DNA of 64,000 bases, taken from NCBI GenBank assembly GCA_025917655.1, contig CP084609.1, forward strand, positions 372,001 through 436,000, in the 5' to 3' direction. Position numbers and translations under genes: made by a program. Below, piece by piece: positions 17,111 to 59,807 of this stretch (its first letter is position 1; each line of letters opens with the position of its first letter). The notes beneath the pieces are model-generated. The model searched no databases and had not been told where the DNA came from. It was given only the letters and a program-made list of their open reading frames with translations. Source of the DNA: Chlorella sorokiniana. Its lineage: Eukaryota; Chlorophyta; Trebouxiophyceae; Chlorellales; Chlorellaceae.

Positions 17111-20100
17111 CAGTACCGTGGCTGCAATGTGAGATGCACTCAGACCTGCCTCTGCAAGCTGCTCAGCCTGCAAACCATAAACTTCCACTGTCAACACAAT
17201 ACCAGTGTGATGATGGCAGATCAACAGAAACACCTGCAATCCTGCGTACCTGAGTTCCATGGTCAATATAACGATCTGGTAATGTCATGGGCCGGAACTT
17301 GAGATTGCCATCCAAGTGACCCTCCAAGCAAAGGAACTGAAAAAGCAAGGACAGCAATCAGGCTGAATATGCCAGGAAGAATCCTTGGCTGTGCAACACA
17401 TACCTGCATCACATGCGCCGCGAAACCACCAACAGAACCTTCTTCGACTGTAATCATCACAGAATGCTCTGTCGCCAGCCTCCGCAGCATCTCAGTGTCA
17501 AGAGGCTTGCAAAATCGTGCATCCACGACAGTGGCTGACACCCCTGCCTGCATTCACAACGAACTTCGCTGAGCGTCGCTTTTAATGAGTGGCGGTACAT
17601 GCTCCACAGCAGTCTTGCCTGCTGCAGCATTTCTGCCGCTGCCAAACAGTCATTGACAGGGTTTCCGTAGCCAACGAGCGCAACATCAGCACCCCCCGGC
17701 GGAGGCGCATCTTACCGATCTGCACACACACACCGGGCAACGAAATTCATTTACACAACACAAACACGCGGGGTGGCATTACACTTTGAATCGTACAGGG
17801 GACATACCGGCACTGGGGTGCCCTTCATGTCTGTTGTGATGCCTTCGCTGGCTAAATCAATGCCGATCCCATTTCCACGAGGAAAGCGGAAGCATGATGG
17901 ACTGCACAATACAACAGCAAGGATGACTGTTGGCATGAGCACACCTGTTATTGCACATGCTCAGCTTCAGGTGGGCCACGGGCTCACCGGTCATCAATGG
18001 TGGCACATGTTGCCACCATATTGATCAACTCAGCCTCATTTGAAGGAGCCATCACTACCATGTTTGGAAGGCAAGCCATGTATGTGACATCAAAAGCACC
18101 ACAGTGGGTGGCACCATCAGCGCCAACCAAGCCAGCACGGTCCATGGCAAAACGAACTGCACAGGTATCAGTTTGACCAGGTTTGAGTACTCACTTTATA
18201 GAAACAAATGTGAATGAGTCGAGCCATGCATACTTGCTGTCATTAATGAGCACCTGGAAGGCTCTGAAGGGAGACATCATGGACAACCTGATCATATCCG
18301 CGTTGCAAGAAGGATGAATAAATGGCCACAAATGGCGCAAGGCCTTCACATGCAAGACCAGCTGCAAAAGTGACTGCATGCTGCTCAGCAATGCCAACGT
18401 CGTAGACACGCTCAGGGAATGCCTGCGGCAGTAGTTTTGGTGTCAGCTAAAGAGTCACAAAGGGTGTCTCCGTCTGCACACACAACGCGACACAGACCTT
18501 TTCAAATCGGTTCATTCCAGTGCCTCCACCCATGGCTGCATGAATGCCCACAATGCGCGCGTCTTTCTTAGCCTCGGCCACCAGCGCGTCAGCAAAGTAG
18601 TTGGTGAGGGACTGCGTCTGCAAGATTGGGCAACACAATCTTGCTGATTGAGAATCTGAAGGACAAACACCTAAGGGCAAGCGGACCTACCTGAGACTTT
18701 GCTTTTAGCTGCTTGCCTGTCACAGTATCGTACTGGACAACACCATGCATTTTATCAGAGGCACTCTCCGCCGGGAGATACCCGCGGCCTTTTTCAGTGA
18801 CAACATGTAAGAGGACTGGTCCCACCGTCTCGGTGGTCTTGATCTCTGCAAGAATGCATCCTCCAACCTGTTCAGTTTCCAGCAAGCGACCTCCATGCAT
18901 GCCCATCAAAATGCTCACCTGATAGAACATCAACAAGATCTTGCAGATTATGGCCATCTACAGGGCCAATGTAGTAAAAGCCCAGTTCTTCAAACAATGT
19001 ACTGCCCGTGCCACTGATCATACCACGCGCATATTCATCTATCTTGGCAGTGGCGTTCTGTATCACGCCTGGCAGTTGCTTGGTGACCCCTTTGGCAATC
19101 TCTCGAAGCTCACGAAGCTGACGGTTGGCCTGCAAATCAGTTGTGAAGGCAATGTTCGGATTGAGGGATGCCATGGTACGGCTTGTCATGCAGGAGGGAA
19201 ACAAGAGCGCGCACTTGAAGCCGAGCAAGGGCAGATGACAGTGCACCAACAGGCTCTTGGTTCTTCCCATTGTACTGAGTAGGTAGAGAAACCTGCAGCC
19301 CAGCGAAATCACCAAATGTTTGTTTATCAAACTGCGCAGGTCCATGTGTGATTTTCCATTTGCAGTAATTGCCACCTGCTGATTATCATTCAGCACCACA
19401 ATCATGTTGGTGTCCAGAAATCCGGCGTGATTCATGGCCTCATAGGCCATGCCGCCTGTGATGGCTCCATCACCAATTACCTGCGCATGTGGAATGCGAT
19501 ACCTTCATCATTTACCATACAGCGTACAAGGACACAAATCATGAAGAAGAAACCCACCGCGACAACATTGTTCTTCCTGCCCTTCACATCACGGCCAACA
19601 GCCATCCCAAGGGCTGCAGAGACGGAAGTGGAGCTATGTCCCGCACCAAACGGGTCGTACGGCGACTCGGTCCTCTTTGTAAAGCCTGCATATGTCAGCA
19701 ACATAGAACAGCTTAGGCAGTACAAATTAACCAGCGTTTGTTGCCGCTTCTGCTAGATGTTAGCATTGGTGGTTGGTGGCAAACAAAGCGTGCGTTTGAT
19801 CATGTACTGCCACATAAAGCAAGACTCCCCTGCCAATTCTCCTGCCTATGGGAGTTCGAGAGCTACAGCGGAACATGGCTGCGCTGCAAACAAACCTGAC
19901 AGGCCGCCCTGCTGGCGTATGGTGTGCATCTTCTCTCGGCGGCCAGTCAGCATTTTGTGGATGTAGGCTTGATGCCCCACGTCGAATATGACCTTGTCCT
20001 CAGGCGTATTGAAGACATAATGGAGGGCAACTGTGAGTTCAACCACTCCAAGGCTTGAGCCCAGATGGCCTCCTGTCTTGGCCACAGTGTGAATGAGGTC

Positions 20101-24280: not shown

Positions 24281-27200
24281 TCAATTGCAAGCTTCTGTTG
24301 CTGTATCGTACTCTGAAGCAGTCAGCTTTCCCCTTTTCAGCTTTTTTAAAAGACTGTAATCTCGAGCAAGCTCATGAAGGTCCTCCTCGAGCTGCACTTT
24401 CCGCCGCTTTGCTGCTGGAAGATGCACATTCAAATGTGTTCCCTACATGAACAAGGCAGACTTGAGTGAATTTCTTGACACACGTACATCAGTTGCACTA
24501 GACCAGGTATAATTCTATCAATACCCCATAGTTGGTTGCTTTTGGAACAGGTGGACCTCGCACATTGTGCTTCTGCCGTTGCATAGTCACTTGTCGCTGC
24601 TTTTCTCGTGCTTTATCCTTGAAGCGGACTGGACCACAAATTTGTGACACAACGGGTAAGTGCAGGTGAAGAAAAAGAACAGGCACGATTGTTAATTGCC
24701 ACCTGAACTTGGGTCAACTGTTGATGGAGTAAAACCATCCAGTGCACTCCCCCTCTGCTTAATTTCAGGCATTCTGGGCAGCCTCAGCAGTGCAAATGAC
24801 GTCGCCAAATGGCCCAAAGCGAGATCCTGCAGGCCATCAAAGACATATGACAGGCGAGCGACCCTGTGCACGCAATACGGTCCCGACAGCCAACCTTGCC
24901 TGCAATTGAAAAATGTACTTGCAATGGTGCTCTTTGTATGCCCTCACATAGCTCACAAATGCCTTCACGCCTAGTTCCATAACCATCCTGAAGCAGGGAA
25001 GGCAACACTCCTGCCAAAAAGTCATAAAACATCTAGTGCCCATTGATGAGGCGGCTGGAACAACCGTGAATTACTGGTGATAGCGAGCGACTGACCTGTC
25101 AGACTCTGCCAGTTGTTGGATGACTGCCTGAAGTTCTGGTAATGCGGTTGTAGGTGTTGCTGGCTCCATGCGTATGTTTCGAACCTTGAGAAAGTCTATG
25201 TAGGTCGACTCATGGGGCAGCAAGTAGACCACTACAATAACAAGCTTGGTAAAGAGTCGAGCTGTCACTGTTAACGTCAAAGTGCAACTAAAGGCTGGAC
25301 ACAACTGGCATCATACCCAGCTTACCAGCATTACCACTGCGTCCCATGCGAGCGGTGCGTCCTACGCGATGCACAAAAGCACTGGGATCCTAGAACGAGA
25401 AAGGCAGGGTGAGACTAGTTGGCGTGGCTTGCACGCAAAACTAACAGTTTTGTCACCGAGGAATCAATAGTTGTGCCACCAAAACTCATACAAAAGCAAT
25501 TTCGACAACCTACTTGGGGGGGTCAAACTGTACAACCCAGTGGACATTAGGGATATCAAGGCCCCGTGCAGCAATATCTGTGCACAGCAAAACACCTGCT
25601 ACAAGTGGAAACGCGGAAAGTGAGGGGCATTGACCTGCTGCGCACGGGGAGGGGGGGGGGGCCATGATGGACAACCTGCTGAAGCGGCCTTGAAGGCCTC
25701 TATTGTGGCAGTGCGCGCTGCTTGCTTCATTCTCCCATGCAGCGTCCATATAAAAAGCTGTTTGATTTCAGGTACTTGCGAAAGCACAGCTGTACAAGTA
25801 AGGGGCACAGTTGTACAGGTAAGGGGGCACAGTTGTACAAGGCAAGGGCTGGTTGTTAGGCTGTGCAAAAGAAAAGGTGTAATTGTCGAGCTACCTGAGT
25901 AAAAGTCAACACATGCACATGTGAGGAAATACACAATGACCTTGCAGGCTTGGCGCTCCTGCAACGCAGGCATGTGTTGATTCTGCATGATATTTTATAT
26001 TGGCAACACCTCCCGGCAGTGAGAAGCCAACACAAGAACTTGCCTGAAGAAGTGCCACCAGCTGAGGCAATTTTTGGGTCGAAGGACAGATTAAGTACTG
26101 CAACATGAGTCATAAGTAAATTAGTGAATGTAGGAGCATCAGATTCACATTTCTCCTCCTGCAGTTCCCCCATACATCATTTGCTGTTACCAATCAGTAA
26201 TGTATCTGCACCTGCATTTGTAACGTGCTAGGCGTGCGAGACTCCTGCTGCAAGCCTGTGCTGCCACAAATTTCTTGCCCATGTTGACGGTGTTGCGCCA
26301 CGACGTTGATGCGCACTGCACTGGCATTTGAATATGATTTGGCCTGCCCTTGGTCTGTTTAAGCTCAAGACTTCCTGCAATGCTGTTTCAGCCACACCTG
26401 GATTTCGCAAGCCAGCCCGTGCGAGTGCATTCACTGCCTCTGTTTGTGTTGCACTGAAGAGGCCTGCATGGCAGGAGGGTGAGAACGCGAAAGTCCTCCT
26501 TGATGACAATACAGCGTGGCAGGGAATCAGGCACACGTCGCACGCAGACATGGAAAGGATGGTTGTCAAAGGCTCGCCTGTTCGTCGCTGTCGCGGCAAC
26601 CTCCGCATGATGGAGTCGAGCTGTGCCTGAAAACCCATGTCCAGCAGCCGATCTGCCTCATCAAGCACCAAGACCTCCACTGCAATGAGCCAGGGCAAGG
26701 TGGTTCTGTTGCATCTTCTGCTGCATTTGGTTGGGAGTGGTCCAGCAAATACCACGATAAAAACCCGAACTATACCTGTCCGGAAATCAATGGATGCACT
26801 GCGCTGCATAATATCGTTCAAACGGCCCGGAGTGCCAATCAGCACGTGTCCTCCAAATTCATGGAACGTGCGGACATCTGCTGAGACATCCCTGCATGCA
26901 ACATGCAAAAACGGGTTAAGTTCACTTTGTTGGCAGATGTTAAGAATGACACAAGTATAAAAGACTCACGTGCCGCCCACCAACAGCAGGGCTTTCAGCC
27001 AGGGGACTGTTGCAATGAACGGAGTCGCCACTTGCATGGTCTGACCGGCCAGCTCCCTGGTAGGGCTGATAATGATAGCCCCCACCTAGAACACAAGATA
27101 CTTGGGACAGTTAAAAGTTCAACAGCAGTTCAACCGCAGTAGAAGGAGAAGGAAATTTGAACAGCATTGCTAAGTTTGGAATACCTGATTGTTCTTCAAG

Positions 27201-57655: not shown

Positions 57656-59807
57656 ATGGAGAGAGGGCAAGTGACTCTGTCCCTCGACACGATCCTCCAG
57701 CACTGCCGCTGTTCTATCTGCATGGGTGAGTTCTGTCTGCATGGGCTGGACTTCACGAGTGTCAAATCAGTCGTCCTGATTGTAGGGCTTGAGAGCTTGC
57801 AGGGCTAATGAAGAATACAAGGGCGATCTCCGCGTGCATGCATCGGTTCTGCAAAGACTGCATCGAAGCTTGGCTGCGAACCCAATTGTATGTTGTTTGA
57901 CCTCCATCTACATTGCCATTGTCAAAGTCCTTAACCAAGTTTGTGCTGCATCCACAGGGACAATAGTTGCCCACAATGTCGTGCCAAGTTTGCTAGCAAG
58001 CGTGATTGCAAACCAGTGAGGCTGGTCACCTATCATGTTGTGGGCTGCGCATTGGTGTAACTCCCTGAATACGCTGTACAGAATCGCGTCGTCTGCAGGA
58101 TCCCGTTTTCGATCTCCTCCTGCGCGCCATGTTTGGCGAGATTGAGGAGTTTGAAAAGCAGATGTTAGAGCCTTCTAGGGAAATCCTCGAGCGTGCCAAG
58201 ACCGTTGGACAGCACATTGTGCAGGTGAGTGTCATTCTTTGTCCTGCGCAGAGAATACCTCGAAAGACCTTCGCTGAAAAGTAGCATTGGGCTTCTCTTG
58301 GCTTCTACGTAGGCCAAAGAGAGGGCTGCAGCGAAGAACTGGCCATCGCCTATGCCTACAACCATGGAACTGCAACATGACTGGCACTGGCCTGCACACC
58401 AGTGCACAATCTCTGGAAGTGACATGGATGATGTCAAGACTGCACAGACCAGCATATATCCGCAAAATCGTCAAGCGTCTGCTTCCAGCCTGGGCTTGTC
58501 GCATGCCAGCAAGCGTCATGTCCGCACCATGGATTCGTACCAAGACGAGCAGGGCTTCAACAGTCAGGGAACCGTTGATCCTGCTGGCATGCTGTACAGG
58601 TTGGTGCTCTGTTTGCTTGCATCTGGATTTGCAAGTGCAGTAAGGTTCACTACTGTACACCATCGCTGTTGTGGGGATAGCTTAATTGCAAGACACTGTC
58701 CATAACCCTGCAATATCAGCTCAGTGAATATGTAGCTTTGCCTCAATTGCAGAGGCGTGCGTTTTCAAGGCGACAACTGGCAGGCACGGACAAAACGTAG
58801 TGGCAGGGAGGTCAGCCTGGGCCTTTACAACAGTGCAGAGGAGGCGGCAATGGCGTACGACCTTGATCGCTTGCAACAACAAGGCGGCAAGGCGCAGCGC
58901 CTCAACTTTCCACTCCTACGGCAGCACTACAAGCAGATTCTCAGCGACCTGGCTCATGTTCACCAACCCGATGGCCTTCTAGACTTCCTTGCAGTGGCAG
59001 TTCAGGCGGCTGCCAAAGCAGCACATAATGTTCCAGGCGCCACTGCATTGAAGAATACAGGGCCAGTAGCGGCTTCATTGTTAAACTCCCGGCGAACTGC
59101 CGCATCAATGGCTGCTGTCAGTCAGCCGCAAACGCAGCTTGCTGCATGTCCACCAACCAACAATGACGCAGATCTGTGCACAGCAACTAAACCCAGCGGC
59201 GAACAGCTTACTGCTGCTGTTCCGCTGCACACCTCTGCAAGAGCAGGGACCCTTGCTGAACAGCACCCATTGCATGCTGGGTTAGCTTTGAAAATTGCGC
59301 ACGTCCACTTGCAGCCTGGCAATGGCCTGAAGTGGCAGGTAGCCTACCTTGCATGTCCTACTTCAGTTACTGTGCGACAGGTTAAAGAGGTGGGAATGTG
59401 CTTCAATATTGAGACTTGGCAATCATGCTGCCCTGCATCACATGCATATGACAGTTCGCCAACTTCAGGCTGTGGTGCTTGGCGTGGGAGAGAAGCACCG
59501 CATGTCTTCAGGCTCATTACAAATCGAGTTATCTGTGATAAATGACTCAATTTCCACTTTAGACCTCAATGATCTTTACTATAAGGATGACAGGACAGGT
59601 ACTCTCGTACTACAAAATCACATTACCATCAGGTGGGTCATTGCAAGGCAAGAAACCTACTCACACAGGTCACAGCATGTAAACGTTGACCTGATAACTA
59701 CATTGCATTGCAGGGATCTAGTGGCTAGTTTGCAGTCCGCAGAGGAAGGTCTTTGCCTCGAGTATTGGTGCAAAGAGATAGAAGCGAGCAAAGATGCTCA
59801 AGTATGA
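57656..59807 (+). CDS. RING1-like RING finger + AP2/ERF domain + RAWUL-like tail
   Basis: Eight exons (57656-57725, 57803-57887, 57958-58015, 58099-58224, 58313-58599, 58753-59380, 59469-59632, 59714-59807) sum to 1512 nt, a 503-aa frame with no conflict. Residues about 18-60 form a C3HC4 RING: CSICMG, CMHRFCKDCIEAWLRTQ, CPQCRAKFASKRDC, followed by DPVFDLLLRAMFGEIEEFEK. That is the layout of RING1/BMI1 Polycomb ubiquitin ligases. Residues about 205-265 are a full AP2/ERF domain: YRGVRFQGDNWQART, then SLGLYNSAEEAAMAYDLDRL and RLNFP. The last 170 residues (AHVHLQPGNGLKWQVAYLAC, TVRQ, TLVLQNHITIRDLVASLQSA, LCLEYW) resemble the ubiquitin-like RAWUL fold that ends RING1 proteins. Expected role: histone H2A ubiquitylation directed by its own DNA-binding domain. 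That role is inference. Confidence 0.88.

Follow-up and report, generated by a model that had tools for sequence, protein, structure and literature searches.

A RING1-family protein with a compact AP2 domain in its linker, predicted in Chlorella sorokiniana and recurring in its relatives

The main finding of this study, made by sequence, is that a RING1 protein with a built-in AP2 domain is real in C. sorokiniana, recurs in relatives and forms a variant within the known RING1 family: we find one gene with a fixed order of its domains, a combination that relatives share, and an AP2 domain that is strongly conserved. It has long been asked how PRC1 is guided to its targets, because the recruiters that are known are separate proteins and partly redundant. 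Here, the putative histone-marking ligase may locate its DNA site by itself, via a DNA-binding-like AP2 domain in the same chain. If this is true, a unicellular alga would allow a single gene to be used to test how a DNA motif leads to H2A ubiquitin. In addition, the analysis brings out an overlooked AP2 domain in proteins filed as RING1a or RING1b, which went unseen because its score lies under the standard cut-off.

The gene and its predicted protein

The gene lies in the window, by which we mean the whole stretch of 64,000 nucleotides that was analysed, and rebuilding it from the DNA yields eight exons on the forward strand (57656-59807) that encode one protein of 506 residues (506 codons plus stop). 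The coordinates, the phases and the single continuous frame of the original prediction are thereby reproduced, whereas its count of 503 codons is corrected to 506. The exons (all from the gene model) and the features of the protein, with the evidence for each in brackets, are as follows.

57656-57725, forward strand, exon 1
57803-57887, forward strand, exon 2
57958-58015, forward strand, exon 3
58099-58224, forward strand, exon 4
58313-58599, forward strand, exon 5
58753-59389, forward strand, exon 6
59469-59632, forward strand, exon 7
59714-59807, forward strand, exon 8
57704..57982, forward strand, RING finger, residues 17-60, across introns 1 and 2 (Pfam E 2e-10, RING2 chains)
57983..58161, forward strand, post-RING RING1 segment SKRDCKPDPVFD..., residues 61-92, across intron 3 (RING2 alignment)
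58586..58915, forward strand, compact AP2 domain, residues 205-263, across intron 5 (sub-threshold Pfam match, two profile tests)
58916..59116, forward strand, conserved post-AP2 stretch, residues 264-330, LLRQHYKQIL...DFLAVAVQAA (identities in relatives)
59282..59786, forward strand, conserved C-terminal region, RAWUL-like candidate, residues 386-500, across introns 6 and 7 (identity in P0001-P0004)

The seven introns are all GT-AG, have consistent phases and measure 70 to 153 bases each (631 in sum). Two of the acceptors were chosen by us: 58099 because it restores the RING1 motif KPDPVFD (KRDCKP/DPVFD), whereas using the closer AG at 58082 disrupts the frame, and 59469 because it keeps the frame. 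When proteins of relatives were aligned independently to the raw DNA of the window, they covered 57802-57888 (exon 2), 57959-58015 (exon 3) and exons 6 and 7, and they matched the start of exon 4 at 58099; for exons 5 and 8, borders included, support from relatives is weaker and the frame carries more of the weight. Elsewhere in the window, two open frames on the reverse strand resemble by eye a deoxyxylulose-phosphate synthase exon (18875-19504) and a helicase-like exon (26231-26965), both ordinary nuclear neighbours.

The RING finger is of the C3HC4 type, its residues checked as C19, C22, C35, H37, C40, C43, C56 and C59, and it matches the Pfam C3HC4 RING family above the cut-off (E 2e-10). 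Its best match in the PDB is a RING2-BMI1 chimera (1.8e-19), followed by unfused RING2 chains at 3.1e-17 to 2.2e-15, with PCGF/BMI1 chains at 3e-7 to 4e-4. To judge by these matches, the RING is closest to the RING1/RING2 rather than the PCGF/BMI1 type, which narrows the earlier proposal of a RING1/BMI1-type RING to RING1, RING2 chains scoring far more strongly than PCGF/BMI1. The alignment with RING2 extends through the post-RING segment to residue 92, with SKR...PDPxFD present. At the positions that we take to be E2 or nucleosome contacts in RING2, the window protein has I21, K62, K66 and R67 where RING2 has I53, K93, K97 and R98, while D56 and K92 are replaced by G24 and A61.

The C-terminal region of the protein is conserved in P0001-P0004, the four nearest relatives (39/91, 44/113, 42/109 and 41/112 sites identical to the window, or 37-43%), and we consider RAWUL a plausible identity for it. 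Pfam RAWUL matched neither the window protein, nor the nine relatives scanned, nor seven C-terminal segments, and even at E up to 10 a profile of the region had no match in the PDB. Compared directly with the RAWUL of RING2, and with those of RING2 and RING1 together, the profile gave weak matches over 24-25 columns (E 0.12 and 0.067), in a plausible register and with a score that 1 of 100 column shuffles equalled or beat. Of the RAWUL-like C-terminus originally predicted, what stands is a conserved C-terminal region; its identity as a RAWUL is weakly suggested by the direct comparison. The Pfam RAWUL model likely overlooks some true orthologs, according to the available text of PMC10638273.

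The AP2 domain in the window protein and its relatives

The Pfam AP2 model matches the window protein at E 1.2e-4 with 22.7 bits, under the cut-off of 33.3, and at E up to 0.01 it matches four of nine relatives scanned (P0001, P0002, P0004 and P0006), all likewise under the cut-off. Standard annotation misses the domain because of this score, and the precomputed domains of the protein matches consist of RING families or nothing, never AP2. Two profile tests establish the domain as an AP2. In the first, a nine-member family profile, the window included, was compared with the PDB, where all five matches at E up to 1 are AP2/ERF proteins, the best being WRI1 (1.1e-19). Conversely, a profile built from seven reference AP2 domains only recovers the window (1.8e-7), P0006 (1.5e-10) and P0007 (1.8e-7), and 15 of the 20 protein matches pass 0.001, among them P0019, which is the window's own exon. 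The profile search that the original prediction had proposed as a check thus places the RING above the Pfam cut-off and finds the AP2 significant by two profile tests. With the same reference profile P0014 is marginal (E 0.065), and P0011, P0012, P0016 and P0020 have no match listed among the 20 proteins tested; since P0011 and P0020 start within the AP2 domain and P0016 is a fragment that carries a RING, only P0012 has both ends without an AP2.

These 20 distinct proteins come from three protein searches, the first two of which were limited to scoring the 8000 candidates with the most words in common; a search with the RING region (43 candidates) returned seven proteins, all already among the known matches. 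RING and AP2 stand in one chain in six of the 20 (P0001, P0002, P0003, P0004, P0006 and P0007, the RING of P0004 beginning inside the domain). The combination sought in relatives therefore exists in the same order, and the predicted placement of the AP2 between the RING and the C-terminal part is shared by relatives that include Chlorella vulgaris (P0001) and Micractinium conductrix (P0003). A seventh protein, P0014 from Nannochloris, has a RING and a diverged, marginal AP2, and P0012 has a RING and the C-terminal region with no AP2, so that the AP2 is not essential to every member of the family.

Where present in the four nearest relatives, the AP2 is the best-conserved segment of the aligned proteins, ahead of the RING. 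Of its 59 sites, 53, 49, 50 and 51 are identical to the window in P0001-P0004 (83-90%), compared with 68/85, 61/85, 64/85 and 46/57 in the RING segment (72-81%) and 23-40% of aligned sites in the two linkers. More distant AP2 domains share 32/58 (P0006), 38/59 (P0007) and 21/58 (P0014) sites. Conservation continues past the domain, the post-AP2 stretch being identical at 48/67, 40/57, 41/66 and 45/67 sites in P0001-P0004. This stretch, in which our Pfam scan found no family, may extend the AP2 for DNA binding or dimer formation.

The relatives also bear on whether the exon model has joined two neighbouring genes, which we regard as highly improbable. Such a fusion might be suspected from the start of the AP2, which nearly coincides with an exon border (58599/58753), and from several matches in which the AP2 exon is a separate frame (P0008, P0009, P0010, P0015, P0017 and P0018). 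However, these free frames overrun the same residue into an apparent intron, just as the window's own exon (P0019) does, and the RING-AP2 order is the same in six relatives, two of which are named and annotated as RING1. Moreover, the 529 residues of P0004 take up 1587 bases, its contig is no longer than 1823 bases, and the roughly 236 bases left over are too few for the six introns of that part of the window, so that it looks like a cDNA or an intron-free copy. We took the source tag 'lgn' of the relatives' records to denote assemblies of public reads. P0002 does not decide the matter, since the approximately 616 spare bases of its contig (495 residues on 2104 bases) are close to the window's intron sum of 631 and a spliced prediction is possible on size alone. 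Two joined genes were rejected on the common order in relatives together with the size of P0004.

The layout of the domain sets it apart from its plant counterparts. From the strand-2 aromatic (a tryptophan) to the LG, the window AP2 counts 12 residues, compared with 14, 14, 14, 14, 15, 15 and 22 in seven plant-type references. The domain predicted as a complete AP2/ERF domain is thus, to judge by matches and spacing, an AP2, but one without the plant AP2/ERF layout (12 residues vs 14-22). Among viral AP2 domains, 74 of the 79 that could be measured have a spacing of 12; they come from a sample of the best 80 of 141 viral relatives from the family alignment, a sample that is biased, the confirming alignment favouring gap-free matches. 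Identity to the window hardly separates the groups, at about 36-53% for the best viral domains and 37-42% for full-length plant references. Another compact-looking AP2 exon, QARILVHGKVTHLG / QARILVHGKVTHLGYYETEEEAARVYD, lies elsewhere in the genome (G000:C6:1770640-1770774, L109); from this exon, the compact AP2 may be old stock in the alga. In alignments of the PDB matches read by eye, the residues at positions that we take to be the base contacts of AtERF1 are mostly not kept in the window AP2, and the DNA specificity of AtERF1 is therefore not transferable to it.

Polycomb parts of the genome and possible mechanisms

In the genome assembly searched (38.8 Mb, 15 contigs), the H2A C-terminus gave nine matches, and the eight with loci read carry LLPKK followed by TGKK or SGKK. 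Six H2A genes on contigs C11 and C12 of G000 (L013-L018) have the identical C-terminus LLPKKTGKKAEA, and two further H2A genes have an H2A.X-like ending, SQEF in L019 and SQEY in L020. A SUZ12-type VEFS-box over the cut-off (E 2.8e-11) at G000:C5:1030003-1030245 (L026) indicates that a PRC2 component is probably present. A shallow, exon-by-exon search with a BMI1 RING gave six weak matches, and none of the four that were read is PCGF-like by eye. The RING of the window protein itself gave 15 matches, four inside its own gene and the other 11 at 2.9e-5 or weaker. A second RING1-type gene was rejected, the best outside match being at 2.9e-5 and the four read of these 11 being by eye other RING proteins, and so was an E(z) CXC domain, whose one match lies under the cut-off (E 0.22) in a frame that by eye is not E(z)-like. 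The Pfam RAWUL and chromo shadow models gave no match in the genome, but they gave none in any control either, and these blanks therefore carry no information on absence. In the available parts of published surveys, chlorophytes are described as having full-length RING1, no LHP1 and a BMI1 without RAWUL (PMC4397884), and algae as having RING1 with few other PRC1 parts (PMC5405695), which agrees in outline with the Polycomb parts of this genome.

Our preferred reading is that the protein is a PRC1-type ubiquitin ligase of the RING1 family, with a compact AP2 in its linker that would direct H2A ubiquitylation. The RING, with the basic patch that follows it, would dock on the nucleosome and, together with an E2, ubiquitylate the C-terminus of H2A. 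The AP2 would bind DNA and keep the ligase at chosen sites, one chain thereby doing the job that animals and land plants leave to separate recruiters. Binding of partners would fall to the C-terminal region, and the RING may self-associate. Self-interaction of AtRING1a via its RING region is described in the available text of PMC3900384, and that of PMC10638273 portrays plant RING1 as able to homodimerise and DNA binding as important for Polycomb targeting. We give this reading a probability of roughly 0.5, and no higher because transcript evidence is thin and the RAWUL is unproven. We counted in its favour the RING1-type RING and post-RING motif, the AP2 identity from both profile tests, the six of 20 proteins that combine RING and AP2, the conservation of the AP2 above all other segments, the residues of the nucleosome patch, the LLPKK tails of H2A and the SUZ12-type VEFS-box, and against it the lack of AP2 in P0012, the marginal AP2 of P0014, the AtERF1 contacts that are mostly lost, the changes of D56 to G24 and K92 to A61, and the failure of the shallow search to reveal a BMI1-type partner. 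A bolder version, to which we lend only tentative credence, is a single-chain ligase in which the AP2 would read a motif and the RING mark H2A, replacing the recruiters and perhaps also BMI1 and LHP1, the AP2 having come from a compact stock shared with viruses and not from plant transcription factors. BMI1 and LHP1 are reported as reduced or missing in chlorophytes in published surveys, e.g., in the available text of PMC4397884.

Two other explanations retain the protein and assign its AP2 or its RING a different task. The AP2 might merely provide a non-specific grip on DNA or nucleosomes, or protein contacts, that raises ligase activity with no choice of site. We think this rather unlikely, although the segment is basic overall (11 K/R vs 6 D/E in 68 residues), the base-contact residues of the ERF type are mostly lost in the alignments, and the conserved block does not stop at the AP2 but reaches about residue 330, as if the unit were larger than a motif reader; the AP2 is more conserved than the RING, and that is more than a loose grip on DNA needs. 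AP2 domains are, on the other hand, typical of transcription factors, and the protein could chiefly regulate transcription, with itself or the factors bound to it, instead of H2A, as the targets of its RING. The shallow genome search, in which no BMI1-type RING was seen, fits this explanation, as do the available parts of surveys suggesting that algal RING1 may work outside PRC1 (PMC5405695, PMC4397884). Yet the RING is nearest to RING1/RING2, with residues placed at the nucleosome patch kept, and H2A retains its LLPKK tail, so that we consider a mainly transcriptional role improbable.

Comparison with known systems

The AP2/ERF transcription factors (WRI1, AtERF1, ERF096 and TEM1) have in common with the window protein the YRGVR, LG, AEEAAxAYD and LNFP signature. 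They differ in the longer stretch from strand 2 to LG, and the window AP2 is fused to a putative RING1 ligase. The compact AP2 domains of viral contigs share instead the spacing of 12. Viral compact AP2 domains often accompany HNH nucleases. HNH-AP2 homing endonucleases carry such a nuclease domain, whereas a Pfam scan at E up to 1 found no HNH family in the window protein.

In line with the original prediction, which knew of no described protein with this architecture, the combination of RING1 and AP2 was not found in the literature searched. The term AP2 is absent from the main text of PMC6599366, PMC10638273, PMC5405695 and PMC4397884; in the available text of PMC3900384, "AP2 domain" occurs once, in the title of a reference, and that of PMC7147800 mentions RING1, AP2 and Chlorella without connection to one another. 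Odd extra domains are listed for some plant RING1 predictions in the available part of PMC6599366, such as a POU domain in maize.

Animal RING1/RING2 and plant RING1A/B share with the window protein the type of RING, the post-RING DPxFD, the basic positions facing the nucleosome and a conserved C-terminal region, but they have no AP2 between the RING and the C terminus, and the RAWUL is unrecognisable by sequence in the window protein. B3-domain VAL proteins are separate PRC1 recruiters in plants. VAL is listed among PRC1-associated proteins in the available part of PMC6599366. Recruiters of this kind would supply the same DNA-targeting step as the one we propose here, but as separate proteins, whereas the AP2 of the window protein lies inside the chain of the predicted ligase itself.
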